A stretch of 24,325 nt of DNA, taken from positions 1 through 24,325 of the IMG/VR virus record IMGVR_UViG_3300027743_000087; one strand, written 5' to 3'. Below, piece after piece: positions 4,130 through 20,318 of this stretch (position 1 is the first letter of the stretch; each line of letters opens with the position of its first letter). Source of the DNA: a virus. Below the pieces are notes generated by a model, which made no database searches, had not been told where the DNA came from, and saw only the letters and a program-made list of their open reading frames with translations. A program made the translations under genes and the position numbers.

Positions 4130-4467
4130 CGCTTCAGCCCCAGGCGGCGCGCGTGGGTAAAGGGCGACGTGCTCCGGTGCCGCTGCGCCTGATCCGCCGG
4201 CGACAACTGCGGCTCCGGTAGCGTCTGGCACCAGCGCTCCTCGATGAGCCACGTCGTCATCGACGGCACGATGTGCTGGCGCCATTGCTCCGAGCGTTTG
4301 TGCTGCTCGAGGGCATGGAGCATGACCGCATAGGGCACCTTGTTGAGCGCCTGGGCGAACGCGTTCCGTGCACTGGCACCGGTCATCCGCCGACTCGACG
4401 GATAGGTGGCCGCAAACTGCGCGAATTTATCCGTGTGCCGTTTTGAATCGATTCGTGTCCGGTACAT
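4126..4467 (-). CDS. helicase loader-like C-terminal domain protein
   Basis: This 113-residue protein resembles only the C-terminal region of phage replisome-organiser or helicase-loader proteins. The pattern is FAQFAATYP...A-R-AF-AL-K...L-ALEQHKRSEQW...IVPSMTTWLIEERW, corresponding to the familiar W-YP...A-AW-K...S-W...P-TWLN-RRW layout. Full proteins of this class normally have a further N-terminal DNA-binding domain. Here the region upstream is instead the mirror repeat and the CACNN array, and a stop codon lies just before the ATG, which has no clear ribosome site. It may be a naturally short loader or a truncated one. Its position next to the array is one reason to suspect a replication origin there. 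Confidence 0.55.
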   Translation of the reverse strand: MYRTRIDSKRHTDKFAQFAATYPSSRRMTGASARNAFAQALNKVPYAVMLHALEQHKRSEQWRQHIVPSMTTWLIEERWCQTLPEPQLSPADQAQRHRSTSPFTHARRLGLKR

Positions 4468-4550
4468 ATATATCTACTGAAAGGGTTGACCCAACAGCCA
4501 CCTTGCACCACTCCAAGTTTCACGATCTGCTCGTCTGGCATCTGTAGATC

Positions 4551-4605
4551 TTTTTTCTTTCTCTTTCTTTCTTTGGATACCTTTCTTTCTTTCTCTTTCT
4601 TTTTT
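4551..4605. repeat. perfect homopyrimidine mirror repeat (H-DNA type)
   Basis: Two 24-nt arms made only of C and T (4551-4574 and 4582-4605) are exact mirror images of each other, not inverted complements, around a 7-nt spacer GGATACC. Perfect homopurine/homopyrimidine mirror symmetry of this length is the classical requirement for intramolecular triplex (H-DNA). The flanking bases (c4550, a4606) break the symmetry, so the arms are sharply bounded. It abuts the CACNN array. The 83 bases between it and the gene ending at 4467 hold no convincing gene. Confidence 0.95.
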
Positions 4606-4621
4606 ATGTGCTGATATGGAA

Positions 4622-5579
4622 CACGTCACGGCACCTCACGACAATTCACACCACTTCTCGACGCCACGACGCGTCACGTCACCGCGCGACACTACGCCAC
4701 TCGGCGTCACTTCACGGCACTGGGCGCCACTTCACTGCGGCACACAACTCGGCGTCACTTCACCCCACCACTGAACAGCACAAAACACGACACGGCTTGA
4801 CGGCACTACACCGCACGACCGTGCACTGCGCGACACTTCACGACTCGACGTCAACACACCACAGACCCACGGCCCTGCGGCACACGACACGGCACGACTC
4901 GGCGTCACATCAAACCAGGGCGGATCACCCCACTGCGCGGCAAGTCAAAGCTCGACGGCACCTCACTTCAGCACACAGACACGACGAAACGCGACACAAC
5001 GCGCCTCGACGACACCACACGACAATGCACGCCCCGACACTGCCCCACACGACACACCACGGCACTGCTCGGCGTCACGGCACGTCATCACCCTTCACTT
5101 CGCTACGCCACGCCACATCCCTCGACGCCAGGCCACACCACGACATGACCAGCCAGTTCATTGCTCGACGACAAAACAACACACTGCAGATCGCCGCTCG
5201 ACGTCACGCCACCCCACCGCACCTCGCGCCACGGCGCACCGGCTCACAACGCTACACAACAGTACTTGGCGCCATCTCACCGCACCGCACAACCCAAGGC
5301 ACGGCACACCAGTTCACTTCGCCCCTCGACGGCATGACAGATCGTTTCACTGCATGTCACATCTCGACGCCGCTTCACGTCGCTCCAGCACGCTTCACAT
5401 CGCAGCACGCCAGTTCTCGACGCCAACGCACTTCAGATCAGCGCACTCCAGTCCACTGCCGAACACTGCACATCTCGGCGTCATCGCAGTTCAGAACCGC
5501 GCATTCCACTCCACTTCACCGCACCGCGCATCTCGACGTCACAACAACCCAACCCGCTGCAGAGCATCACTCGGCGTCA
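4622..5579. repeat. CACNN pentamer array with CTCGRCGN octamers
   Basis: About 958 bp without a believable gene, built from degenerate pentamers CACNN in register for long stretches. They are interrupted by an octamer CTCGRCGN (mostly followed by CA). Octamers start at 4657, 4700, 4748, 4796, 4844, 4898, 4951, 5005, 5068, 5121, 5164, 5197, 5325, 5363, 5416, 5474, 5532 and 5570. Fifteen of the 17 spacings equal 8+5k (33-63 bp, plus one of 128); the other two (54, 54) are one base off. The last octamer runs into the stop codon of the gene at 5577-5960. An apparent plus-strand reading frame of 456 codons (4608-5978) is a by-product, because ideal CACNN/CTCGRCGN units cannot contain a stop in any forward frame. 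Confidence 0.9.
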
Positions 5580-5960
5580 GCGGCCATCGTCCGGGAGGAG
5601 TTGGCGGATGACTTCGCCATCGGACGGGGCGATCACCGGCCCCAGCCCCATCTGACTCCGCAGGATTGGATTCCGCGGTACCGGCGCCTTGCGTTTGTAT
5701 TTCAAGACGAGTTGCCAGAACCGCATTTCCATCGTGGCGAGATTTACGATGCCCTTGAGTTGCTGGCCCATCTGCTCCGCGATCTTCCCGGAGATGGCAT
5801 CTCGCTCAAGTGCGTCGAATATCTGTTCGTGCTTCGCCGCGATCGCTTCAACGGTGCGGAGTTGCGGCGCGTTCGGCCGGAGCTTCGGCACCATCGGGGA
5901 GTCGTTCGAGGGTGTAGGTGTAACGGCCTTCCCCGTCGCTTCTTTCGCCGGCGTAGCCAT
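5577..5960 (-). CDS. 127-aa helical hypothetical protein
   Basis: A 127-residue protein of unknown family. Residues 1-35 are low-complexity (Pro/Thr/Lys-rich). Residues 36-90 are predicted long helices, with a segment AISGKIAEQMGQQLKGIVNL and then MEMRFWQLVLKYKRK, a pattern I associate with small uncharacterised phage proteins. The C-terminus is Pro-rich. The ATG has a near-perfect ribosome site (GGAGG, five bases upstream) even though it lies inside the 3' end of the 252-aa gene. The overlap is 113 nt in another frame. The stop codon is part of the last octamer of the CACNN array. Confidence 0.6.
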   Translation of the reverse strand: MATPAKEATGKAVTPTPSNDSPMVPKLRPNAPQLRTVEAIAAKHEQIFDALERDAISGKIAEQMGQQLKGIVNLATMEMRFWQLVLKYKRKAPVPRNPILRSQMGLGPVIAPSDGEVIRQLLPDDGR

Positions 5961-6606
5961 GTGTGCCTCCGTAGGTGAACAGGTGGTGTAAGTCGGTTTC
6001 CGAGACGGAGCGGCCGAGGACTTTCAACGTGAAGTCCAGGACGGCCGGCGGCTCGATGAATTCAAACCGCTTCAGGGCGTTCAGCGGTTCGCCGCGGGGG
6101 CCGCGCACATGGATCGCCTTGTCGCGCTCGCCATCCGCCTTCGTGATCGGATCCCCGTTCGGCCGGCGCACCGGCAGCCAGTATTCGTGCTCGTCGAGAT
6201 ACACGCCGTTAATCACGCGCGTGCTGAACGCGCGCTCCCCCTGGATACGTCCGACGAATTGCGCCGAGAGCACCCGTGCGCAGTCCTTCATGTGCGCCCG
6301 CACCGTCGCATACCGCATCACGATCACGCCCTCGTGGCGCTGAAACTTCAAAAGGCTGTATGCTTGGTCCGCTTCGCCCTCGCCGCGTTCGATGCTCGCG
6401 AGGACTTCTTCGTTGATCTCTTGGATCGAGAGCGCACCGGCCGGTTTCACTTTAGGTTGTCGCGCCGCTAGCCACGCCGCGACCACTTCCGGATCGGCCG
6501 GTGTCGAACCACACAGACTCGTCAGGAATGCCCACCGCACCCGATACCGCGTCCAGAGATCGCCGTAGTCGCGTTCCGTTGTCGCCGCTGCCGGTTTCTT
6601 TGTCAT
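5848..6606 (-). CDS. 252-aa early phage protein with Gly-rich C-terminal loop
   Basis: A 252-aa protein with an excellent ribosome site (AAGGAGGGAT) before its ATG. The N-terminus has ERDYGDLWTRYRVRW and a segment reading PADPEVVAAWLAARQP. The middle contains a region with GVIVMRYATVRAHMKDCA and strands rich in Val/Arg. Near the C-terminus is a Gly-rich loop, GGTHGYAGERSDGEGRY. I recall related proteins near recombination genes of other phages, ending in a G-x-RS-G-GRF loop that superficially resembles RAMP-type RNA-binding proteins; this is memory and inference only. It lies two genes downstream of RecT in the early operon. Confidence 0.7.
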   Translation of the reverse strand: MTKKPAAATTERDYGDLWTRYRVRWAFLTSLCGSTPADPEVVAAWLAARQPKVKPAGALSIQEINEEVLASIERGEGEADQAYSLLKFQRHEGVIVMRYATVRAHMKDCARVLSAQFVGRIQGERAFSTRVINGVYLDEHEYWLPVRRPNGDPITKADGERDKAIHVRGPRGEPLNALKRFEFIEPPAVLDFTLKVLGRSVSETDLHHLFTYGGTHGYAGERSDGEGRYTYTLERLPDGAEAPAERAATPHR

Positions 6607-6898: not shown

Positions 6899-7928
6899 CG
6901 CCCGCCTCCGGAATGCGCGCGATCGTGAGGATGTCTTTTCCCCAGCGCGTGTCTTTCGTCGTCAGTCCGACGATCGCGTGATCGTGCTTCGCCATGATCG
7001 CGGTGTCTGCGTGATCGCGATCGAGCGTCGTGACGAGCTCGCCGCTGTCGAGCGTGATCGACCATTTCGTGAACGGCGTGCCTTTCCTGTTGGTTTTGGT
7101 TTCGTCGGTGATGTTGACGACACGGCCTTGCAGCCGATCGGGATCGTCGCTTTGGACGAATGGCCGCCACGCTTCAGGCACCTGATTCAAATTCGCCGGA
7201 GTCGCGGAGACTCCCAGCCCCGGATCGGCGATCACCGCGTCAGTCACGGCCGGCCCCGGCGAAGGTTTTAGACTTTTCGTGAGCGGGCGACGATCGGCCG
7301 CTTGCTCCATTTCCTCTTTCACATAGAGGCCGTGCAGTTGCTTCGGAAACGCTTTCCGCAATGCGAGCGCCTCGGCGCACTTCGCCAGCATGAGATGCGG
7401 CATGCGCTTCCACATGAAATCCTGATCGGGCTTGTATTCCGTCCACCGCGCCGTCGCCGTGAACGGCGCCCGCTGCCCCTGCACCAGGCGATACACCGTG
7501 ACGTGCGCCTCGAAGCTCGCCGTCATGGGCGTGCCCGCGAATGTCGCATCGTCGCTGCCGATACATTCGCCGGAATCGGCCGCGCGAATCCGCATGAAGT
7601 CGATCGAGGTGATCGGGGTGTAGCGGCCTTCGCGCCCGCGCTTCGTGAAGTGGATCAGCTTGTCGAGCGGGTGCACCCCTTGGCGGGCGTTGTCGTAGAG
7701 AAAGAGTTTCAGTTCTTCCGGCGTCGCATCCTTCGCGATCGTTTTCCGGATGAGTTCGAGTTCGTCGGCCGTCACGGCGGGGGCCGTGCTGGCGGGCATG
7801 GGTGCAAGTGCCAAACGATCCATATCAGCGGCCCCCTTTCGTAACTGTGCCAGTGCTGTGTTCACGCGCTCATCCTTCCGCTTCATGCGCTTTTCAATCC
7901 AGCGCACATCGACGAAGCGGCGGCCCAC
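6882..7928 (-). CDS. recT: RecT/Bet-family single-strand annealing protein
   Basis: A 348-aa RecT/Bet-type recombinase that anneals complementary single strands during phage recombination and replication. The family core runs from about residue 55 to 210: ELELIRKTIAKDATPEELKLFL, TSIDFMRIRA, a central beta region, and the hallmark W173-KRMPHLMLAKCAEALALRKAFP. After a Pro-rich linker, residues 265-340 (beginning LQGRVVNI, with alternating beta strands) look like an appended OB-fold domain, which is not usual for this family. The GTG at 7928 is five bases after the previous stop, but an ATG at 7823 (residue 36) has a stronger GAAAGGGGG ribosome site and may be the true start. No partner exonuclease is recognised. 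Confidence 0.9.
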   Translation of the reverse strand: MGRRFVDVRWIEKRMKRKDERVNTALAQLRKGAADMDRLALAPMPASTAPAVTADELELIRKTIAKDATPEELKLFLYDNARQGVHPLDKLIHFTKRGREGRYTPITSIDFMRIRAADSGECIGSDDATFAGTPMTASFEAHVTVYRLVQGQRAPFTATARWTEYKPDQDFMWKRMPHLMLAKCAEALALRKAFPKQLHGLYVKEEMEQAADRRPLTKSLKPSPGPAVTDAVIADPGLGVSATPANLNQVPEAWRPFVQSDDPDRLQGRVVNITDETKTNRKGTPFTKWSITLDSGELVTTLDRDHADTAIMAKHDHAIVGLTTKDTRWGKDILTIARIPEAGDDAAF

Positions 7929-19023: not shown

Positions 19024-20318
19024 GCCGCGGGCTCCGGTTCGGGCTCGGGTTCTGGCGCGGGTTCGGGTTCCGGTTCGGGTGCGGGCGTCGTGCGTTCCGC
19101 CAGGCTCGAGACGGGCCAGTTCTGCTGCTGCAGGTATGGCAGCTCGCCCCCGGGCACCGGCCCGAGGCCGTAATACGTCTCCCGGACTTCGTTCGGCGAC
19201 ATGCCCGAGACGATCGCGGCTTGCGCCGCTTGCACGCGCGTGAGCGTGTCCATCCAGATCAGCAACGTGTCATCGAATTCCAGTTTCAGATACGCCGGCA
19301 AGTTCAGCCCGTAACCCAGCGTCTTCGCGATCGCCGTCAGGTGCGGCTCCAGGCACTGGGACTTGTATTGGAGCTGCGAGGCTTCGGCGTTCGCATACGG
19401 CGGCTGCTTACTGCTGTTGAGGATCGAGATCGGCATCCGGAACACTTCGCAAATCTTTTCTTCCGTCCAGCCGAGCTGCTCGATCAGTTGCGAGTTCACC
19501 GCCGTCGCCGAGAACGGTTCAAACTTCATCCCGAAGTCCGCCACGATGATGCTGTTCGCCGTCTTCGCCTTCTCGGCGAGTTGCGCCTCGATGCGCGCGG
19601 CGGACATGGGATCGAGCTTCGTCGGCGCAATCAGGAACCCGCCGACGCGCCCGCCCTTCGCGAAGTGGTTGCTGCTGCTGCTTTGAATGACGTGCGCCTG
19701 GGACACGGCTGCGGCCGCCGCATAGAGCGGGGACACGCCTTGCAGCCGGTGATAGATGCAGTTGTAGCGGTCGTGAATGATGTCTTTCGCCGGCACGATC
19801 AGCGGCGGCGTATCGCTGGGAATGCCCGCGAGATCGTCCGGTTGCAGCTCGTAGTAGACGCTGCCATCGGGCGCGACGAGCACCTTCACGCGCGTCGGGT
19901 TCAGGATGTCGAGCTGATTCACGACGCCGCGCTCGTCGTAGTTCTTCAGCACGTAGACATTCCCGGTCAGCAAGCGCGACAGTGCCCACTGCTCGAGAAA
20001 TTGCTGATCGGTCTGATAGCGATTCGGCCGGCGCAACACCGGCGTATACGCGGGATTGACCGTCTCGGCCCAGAACCCGCGGTCGTCGCGTTCGAGCAGC
20101 AGTGGCGGCGCGATCTTGCTGATGTCCTGGGCGATGCCCGAGACGCAGCCGAAGACGCTGGAGTTACTCAGCGCCGCTTCGGTCGTCAGCGGATCGTTTT
20201 TCTGCCACGCGCCGGTATACGGCTCCTGCACCCACGGCGACCACAGATTGGCATTGGTCGCCGCGAGTGGGGGCGCCGCTTTCCGTGCGAGCGTCAGCTC
20301 ATACCCGAAGAGCTGCAT
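19020..20318 (-). CDS. portal protein (HK97 family)
   Basis: A 432-aa HK97-type portal: PEPYTGAW region near the N-terminus, SNSSVFGCVSGIAQDISKIAPPLL, RPNRYQTDQQFLEQWALSRLLTGNVYVLKN, DIIHDRYNCIYH, and a C-terminal VRETYYGLGPVPGGE. It forms the packaging ring. The last 20 residues are PEPEPE repeats from a hexanucleotide DNA repeat (19024-19086), probably disordered. It is placed after the capsid gene rather than between terminase and protease, an atypical order. No good ribosome site is visible. Confidence 0.9.
   Translation of the reverse strand: MQLFGYELTLARKAAPPLAATNANLWSPWVQEPYTGAWQKNDPLTTEAALSNSSVFGCVSGIAQDISKIAPPLLLERDDRGFWAETVNPAYTPVLRRPNRYQTDQQFLEQWALSRLLTGNVYVLKNYDERGVVNQLDILNPTRVKVLVAPDGSVYYELQPDDLAGIPSDTPPLIVPAKDIIHDRYNCIYHRLQGVSPLYAAAAAVSQAHVIQSSSSNHFAKGGRVGGFLIAPTKLDPMSAARIEAQLAEKAKTANSIIVADFGMKFEPFSATAVNSQLIEQLGWTEEKICEVFRMPISILNSSKQPPYANAEASQLQYKSQCLEPHLTAIAKTLGYGLNLPAYLKLEFDDTLLIWMDTLTRVQAAQAAIVSGMSPNEVRETYYGLGPVPGGELPYLQQQNWPVSSLAERTTPAPEPEPEPAPEPEPEPEPAA

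Follow-up and report, generated by a model that had tools for sequence, protein, structure and literature searches.

The question raised by this locus is what kind of element is formed when a pentamer with three fixed and two variable letters is repeated over 958 bp of phage DNA and is punctuated by an octamer at distances that obey a simple rule. The DNA analysed, hereafter the window, is a stretch of 24,325 nucleotides from an uncultivated phage. The element is very probably a guide-RNA array belonging to a phage VIPR system, a kind of system that has been known since 2026. VIPR (Viral Interference Programmable Repeat) was described in a preprint of that year (bioRxiv 2026.04.26.720920 / PMC13142463), in which a phage RAMP and an accessory gene are combined with pentamer RNAs of the consensus GGY/NN or a related one. 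The NN pairs of these RNAs read DNA with one base skipped, the guides contain 9-16 repeats each, and the experiments are on E. coli and Pseudomonas examples (PMC13142463). The preprint distinguishes seven VIPR types, including 'staggered arrays' (PMC13142463). The preliminary description of the window knew of no named element with this grammar, a statement that no longer holds because VIPR guide-RNA (vrRNA) arrays were described in 2026.

The array and the two degenerate marks within it are located as follows.

4622 to 5579, minus strand: candidate guide-RNA (vrRNA) array, delimited by octamer positions, period-5 tests and an HMM.
4796 to 4803, minus strand: degenerate punctuation mark, CTTGACGG on the plus strand, with one mismatch, read from the sequence.
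5265 to 5272, minus strand: degenerate punctuation mark, CTTGGCGC on the plus strand, within a 128-bp interval, read from the sequence.

The minus (transcribed) strand consists of units of the form (NNGTG)k-NN-GYCGAG with a length of 8+5k, which appear on the plus strand as CACNN pentamers and CTCGRCGN. The exact CTCGRCGN octamers, 17 in number, span 4657 to 5570, and the CTTGACGG mark at 4796 divides a 96-bp interval between octamers into 48 + 48. When this mark is included, the spacing rule given in the preliminary description is reproduced: 15 of the 17 distances equal 8+5k (33-63 bp, one of 128 bp), and the other two are 54 bp, one base off. An HMM over related arrays gives the sense-strand pentamer as N N G(.58) T(.76) G(.99) and reduces the punctuation to G[CT]CGAG, with one extra NN before it. 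GYCGAG is the sole invariant end element seen in the array units. With the guide ends as read from the sequence, units U2 and U3 contain 11 NN pairs each, U4 contains 10, and several other window units contain 6-8. U2 and U3 together form a 58-bp tandem repeat, a duplicated unit pair.

The five-base period of the array is strong. The TG dinucleotide recurs at lag 5 79 times, as compared with 25.5 +/- 5.5 expected from first-order Markov resamples (z = 9.7), and the combined lag-5/lag-10 score of the array is 0.278, whereas the highest score among 120 control loci is 0.085. The VIPR locus of Escherichia phage phiSUSP1, used as a positive control, scores 0.207 in the same test (200-bp windows). 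The periodicity proposed earlier is thus real when compared with resampled sequence, and the array does stop at the upstream gene as had been described, since the last octamer (5570-5577) overlaps the stop codon (5577-5579) of a 127-aa gene. An Rfam search of the window yields no family match, and a tandem repeat search of the window yields no CRISPR repeats. A separate tandem repeat of the window (19028-19085, period 6/18) encodes a Pro-Glu repeat at the C-terminus of a portal-like protein.

Two genes on the same strand as the array adjoin it.

5848 to 6606, minus strand: RAMP (Cas7-like) protein of 252 aa, candidate Vipr, assigned by AlphaFold, Foldseek and array linkage in relatives.
5577 to 5960, minus strand: helical protein of 127 aa, candidate accessory (vap) protein, co-conserved with the RAMP gene and overlapping its end.

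The 252-aa gene product is predicted to be a RAMP of the Cas7/Csm3 fold. Its AlphaFold model is of moderate confidence (mean pLDDT 75.6). When this model is compared with the PDB by Foldseek, every one of the best 50 matches is a CRISPR effector subunit, in nearly all cases Csm3/Cas7, with a top E value of 5.9e-7 and with TM-scores to Csm3/Cas7 that are mostly 0.3-0.6. The protein contains a glycine-rich loop with the conserved sequence YGGxHGYAGERxDGEGRY. Searches of Pfam, NCBIfam and PADLOC with this protein give nothing useful, and no cas gene is detected among those window proteins near the array that were scanned. The 127-aa gene is usually co-conserved with the RAMP gene, and no copy of it is detectable in L285 and L263. 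The model of its product is helical and finds no match in the PDB by structure search; the possibility that it is a Cas11 was considered on account of its helices and was rejected for want of a structural match.

The pairing of the RAMP gene and the array is not peculiar to the window. A pattern scan of IMG/VR detects the same array grammar in approximately 10 other phage contigs, and the neighbours common to these contigs and the window are the 252-aa gene and, usually, the 127-aa gene. The RAMP gene and the array occur together in otherwise different settings, as in L023 and L074, where head and terminase genes are the neighbours. A profile of the 252-aa protein recovers 26-28 loci, nearly all with an adjoining array, and in some of them (L263, L284) arrays lie on both sides of the gene. 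Distant relatives in GenBank, from Microcystis phage Mae-JY09 and a human fecal phage, have adjoining period-5 arrays of quite different letters. When these two proteins were used as queries, 83 further loci were obtained (85 with the two records). In 78 of these 85 loci, which represent two more distant groups, a region of period 5 exceeds the 99th percentile of controls, in most cases no more than a few hundred bases from the gene. The three protein groups are homologous to one another by hhalign (E 1e-16 and 1e-14), and the best sequence match of the group 2 profile is type VII Cas7 (E 0.0016). The preferred unit length is 8+5k in groups 1 and 3, as compared with 6+5k in group 2. The pairing is therefore found in more than 100 phage loci, with letters that vary by group and a five-base step that is constant. 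The marks of the array are on the strand of the gene in all 104 loci tested, which argues that the array acts as RNA. Only 5% of the array units have a near-duplicate partner (0.7% in shuffles). This result agrees with the earlier statement that recent slippage is not the best explanation. The earlier statement that the unit is fixed in length and degenerate in its letters is also right. It had also been suggested that RecT, encoded in the same gene cluster, is the partner of the array; the constant partner is instead the RAMP gene, and RecT is a target gene in sister phages, as described below.

Several other features were observed at these loci. The group 2 arrays (L302-L357) consist of NNNGC pentamers and a six-base mark, AANGGC, with units of 26, 31, 36 and 41, and have RecE exonuclease, primase, DnaB and antirepressor genes among their neighbours. 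A small zinc-ribbon gene is flanked or abutted by arrays at L263:2748-3287, L284:5-400 and L116:772-1000, and a long low-complexity repeat of the GGAGACGGA type adjoins the VIPR locus at L284:841-1190. In Mycobacterium phage Donkeykong, the CDS of gp48 (L473:1004-1390), a 'hypothetical protein', overlaps a very strong period-5 region with a score of 0.399; gp48 adjoins the RAMP homologue gp49 and may represent a VIPR array that was annotated as a gene. A host search with the group-1 profile, which lacked a positive control, covered 297 genomes of the phylum to which L180, a Thermoanaerobaculia bin, belongs and gave no match, and a pattern scan of a genome collection gives single matches only, at a chance-like level.

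To read the variable letters, the decoding rule of the VIPR preprint was adopted, in which NN pairs are read and one target base is skipped between them (PMC13142463). Three neighbouring units of the window have convincing targets by this rule, and the recT gene of the window phage itself contains the homologous site.

5474 to 5531, minus strand: unit U2, matching the MRRKDERVNRA-type allele of the recT start (20/22 in L396, 19/22 in L393).
5416 to 5473, minus strand: unit U3, matching MQFKDDRINRA / MQFRDDRINRA at the recT start (21/22 in seven loci, 20/22 in L397).
5363 to 5415, minus strand: unit U4, matching NAMMKCETKA in another SSAP gene (19/20 in L385, L388 and L391).
7857 to 7886, minus strand: diverged homologue of the U2/U3 target site in the phage's own recT (16/22 and 15/22).

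The SSAP gene of L385, L388 and L391 that is matched by U4 also contains the U3 site. The bases skipped by U2 and U3 are codon position 3 of the recT target. When the patterns of U2 and U3 are merged and IMG/VR is scanned with skip 1, seven contigs are matched, six of them at one recT/SSAP start site with the codons MQFKDDRINR; a few chance matches are expected by rough estimate, but not at a single homologous site. In a separate check, 238 units were compared under four skip rules, with six shuffles each, with phage loci fetched by RecT similarity alone. Only two units beat all six shuffles by at least 2, U3 in L395 (21/22) and U2 in L396 (20/22). Both are units of the window itself, and both match with skip 1 at the recT start; the matches of U2 and U3 lie at homologous sites and do not count as independent events. 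Convincing targets are found for 3 of the 13 window units scored, and U1 has no match in the IMG/VR target scan. When pooled over the 238 units, skip 1 shows a weak excess only (z 2.4 for one phage set and 0.9 for another), which is explained by small collections. Guides that span the punctuation marks gain no matches when scored, so that the guide appears to be confined to one unit. Neither a reading in which all three fixed bases are skipped nor full-length contiguous pairing distinguishes real from shuffled units against 4 Mb of phage loci, and an excess of skip 3 proved to be an artefact of unmasked array copies. A side observation on the targets is that two SSAP proteins that do not resemble each other have a similar leader at the N-terminus, GRRFVDMRTIQRRMQFKDDRINRAL, in which the U3 target lies (L385, L387, L388, L390, L391).

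The closest relative found, L395, has several neighbour genes that are approximately 90% identical to those of the window phage. Between the same flanking genes it carries a different RAMP-like gene, a 176-aa accessory gene and an array of the YNNGG kind known from the preprint (L395:4246-6080), and its RAMP is 48% identical to one from Cyanophage Cy-LDV1. Two features of the window are related to this locus.

4277 to 4314, minus strand: site in the window rep gene, at codons ALEQHKRSEQW, to which a guide of L395 decodes.
4549 to 4602, no strand assigned: pyrimidine-rich (TTTC)n tract beyond the array, found also behind the different array of L395.

The L395 guide matches the window rep gene perfectly over the first 11 NN and at 22/26 over 13 NN, and other rep genes at 26/26 (L397) and 25/26 (L388). 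Because U3 decodes to recT of L395 and the L395 guide decodes to rep of the window, a guide of each phage decodes to an early gene of the other. The interval between the flanking genes is only approximately 170 bp in L388 and 280 bp in L391, and these are apparently empty sites; it is longer in L393 and L396. The comparison of this interval in relatives, proposed in the preliminary description as a test, therefore reveals the same kind of array, an apparently empty site or a longer interval.

Because the array lies directly behind the RAMP and accessory genes on the same strand, it is most likely co-transcribed with them. Each (NNGUG)k-NN-GYCGAG unit would be cut from this RNA as one guide, with GYCGAG marking the guide end. 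RAMP subunits would coat the RNA, one per pentamer, with the GUG bases kept unpaired, and the two variable bases of each pentamer would pair with DNA, one target base being skipped between pairs. U2, U3 and U4 would be directed to recombinase (recT/SSAP) genes of competing sister phages, and the phage's own recT has a different sequence at the U2/U3 site. The likely outcome would be transcriptional repression of the rival phage. We give about an even chance to a more specific proposal, that the window represents a type of VIPR whose punctuated code (NNGUG guides, GYCGAG ends, 8+5k) is peculiar to it, that the locus is exchanged between sister phages, that the exchanged VIPRs target each other's early genes (SSAP recombinase versus replication initiator), and that the owner escapes by substitutions at the targeted codons.

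The array might instead act as DNA, if a filament protein such as the phage RecT bound duplex or single-stranded DNA once per pentamer and thereby started recombination or replication. In its favour, a RecT gene lies in the same cluster, and 5 bp are bound per monomer in the structure of Listeria RecT (LiRecT) (PMC9772228). This explanation is very improbable, because the array does not follow recT: it is tied to the RAMP gene even beside head and terminase genes, it always keeps the strand of the gene, which a DNA site would not need, and its NN bases, read by the RNA code, agree with recT in other phages. Of the earlier suggestion that the spacing is read by a protein array, the protein array stands as the best explanation of the pentamer step, and the half-turn of DNA and the idea of RecA- or Chi-favoured DNA are wrong or unsupported.

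A structural or sponge RNA, in which the RAMP coats the array RNA and the NN letters are free of target information, would account for pooled target matches that barely exceed shuffles, and type IV-B Csf2/Cas11, which assembles on heterogeneous RNA (PMC7937560), provides a precedent. It is also very improbable, in view of the matches of three neighbouring units to sister-phage recombinase genes by a published rule and of the complete and nearly complete matches of the L395 guide to the rep genes of L397 and L388. Least probable is a functionless element, either a degenerate minisatellite left by slippage or a coding remnant (a 456-codon plus-strand ORF, 4608-5978). The plus-strand frame is open through the array and one 58-bp unit pair is duplicated, as such an origin would predict. 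However, a composition rich in C and A gives few stops, the 8-base punctuation shifts the frame, units seldom share letters, and the grammar is conserved in many diverged phages with differing N letters.

A guide-RNA array of a VIPR system thus remains the preferred reading, and the window adds an independent example of VIPR, which was recognised in the raw sequence of an uncultivated phage. This example indicates that a GTG framework, too, is read with the one-base-skip code, it names natural targets, the SSAP recombinase genes, and it presents two sister phages that carry different VIPRs at the same locus, each decoding to the other's early genes. Because the pentamer signature is easily detected, a search of phage contigs can reveal such arrays, from which the targets can be read.

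Among known systems, the Cas7 (Csm3) filaments of type III and type VII CRISPR resemble the window system in predicted fold and glycine-rich loop, and their arrays resemble it in being built of guide-like units whose boundaries are each marked by a constant element. In contrast, the step in the window is 5 nt rather than 6, the guides are gapped, and neither the CRISPR repeats nor the further cas genes of class 1 CRISPR-Cas are seen beside the cassette. Tas proteins are not RAMPs, and TIGR units are built differently from the window array. TIGR-Tas is, like the window system, a compact phage RNA-guided system with an array (PMC12045711). The closest likeness is to VIPR (PMC13142463), which shares with the window a phage RAMP, a small accessory gene and a flanking tandem pentamer array, as well as the one-base skip, the skipped base at codon position 3 and targets in competing phages. 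In the window, the RAMP with a glycine-rich loop is encoded in a virus record and has a Csm3/Cas7 match by Foldseek, the co-conserved 127-aa gene is the candidate for the accessory gene of a minimal locus, the one-base skip is seen for three units and weakly for the pooled set, and the targets are recT/SSAP genes of sister phages, with rep as the target of the L395 guide. The three fixed letters are GTG (NNGTG) rather than strict GGY, and so correspond to the 'related consensus' that the preprint allows. The units of the window are arranged head to tail, 8+5k apart, with a GYCGAG mark, whereas the best-studied guides of the preprint end in a structured 3' tail (PMC13142463). In phiSUSP1 (KT454805.2), ALH47069.1 is identified as the RAMP in the present analysis. 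The window RAMP and this SUSP1-type RAMP are only remotely alike in sequence (hhalign E 0.01, probability 4%), and the link between them, weak by sequence alone, is drawn from fold, layout and code. The phiSUSP1 locus has separate guides, in YNNGG arrays on both sides of the genes, and the window has one continuous punctuated array; the layout of genes and array is alike in the two phages.
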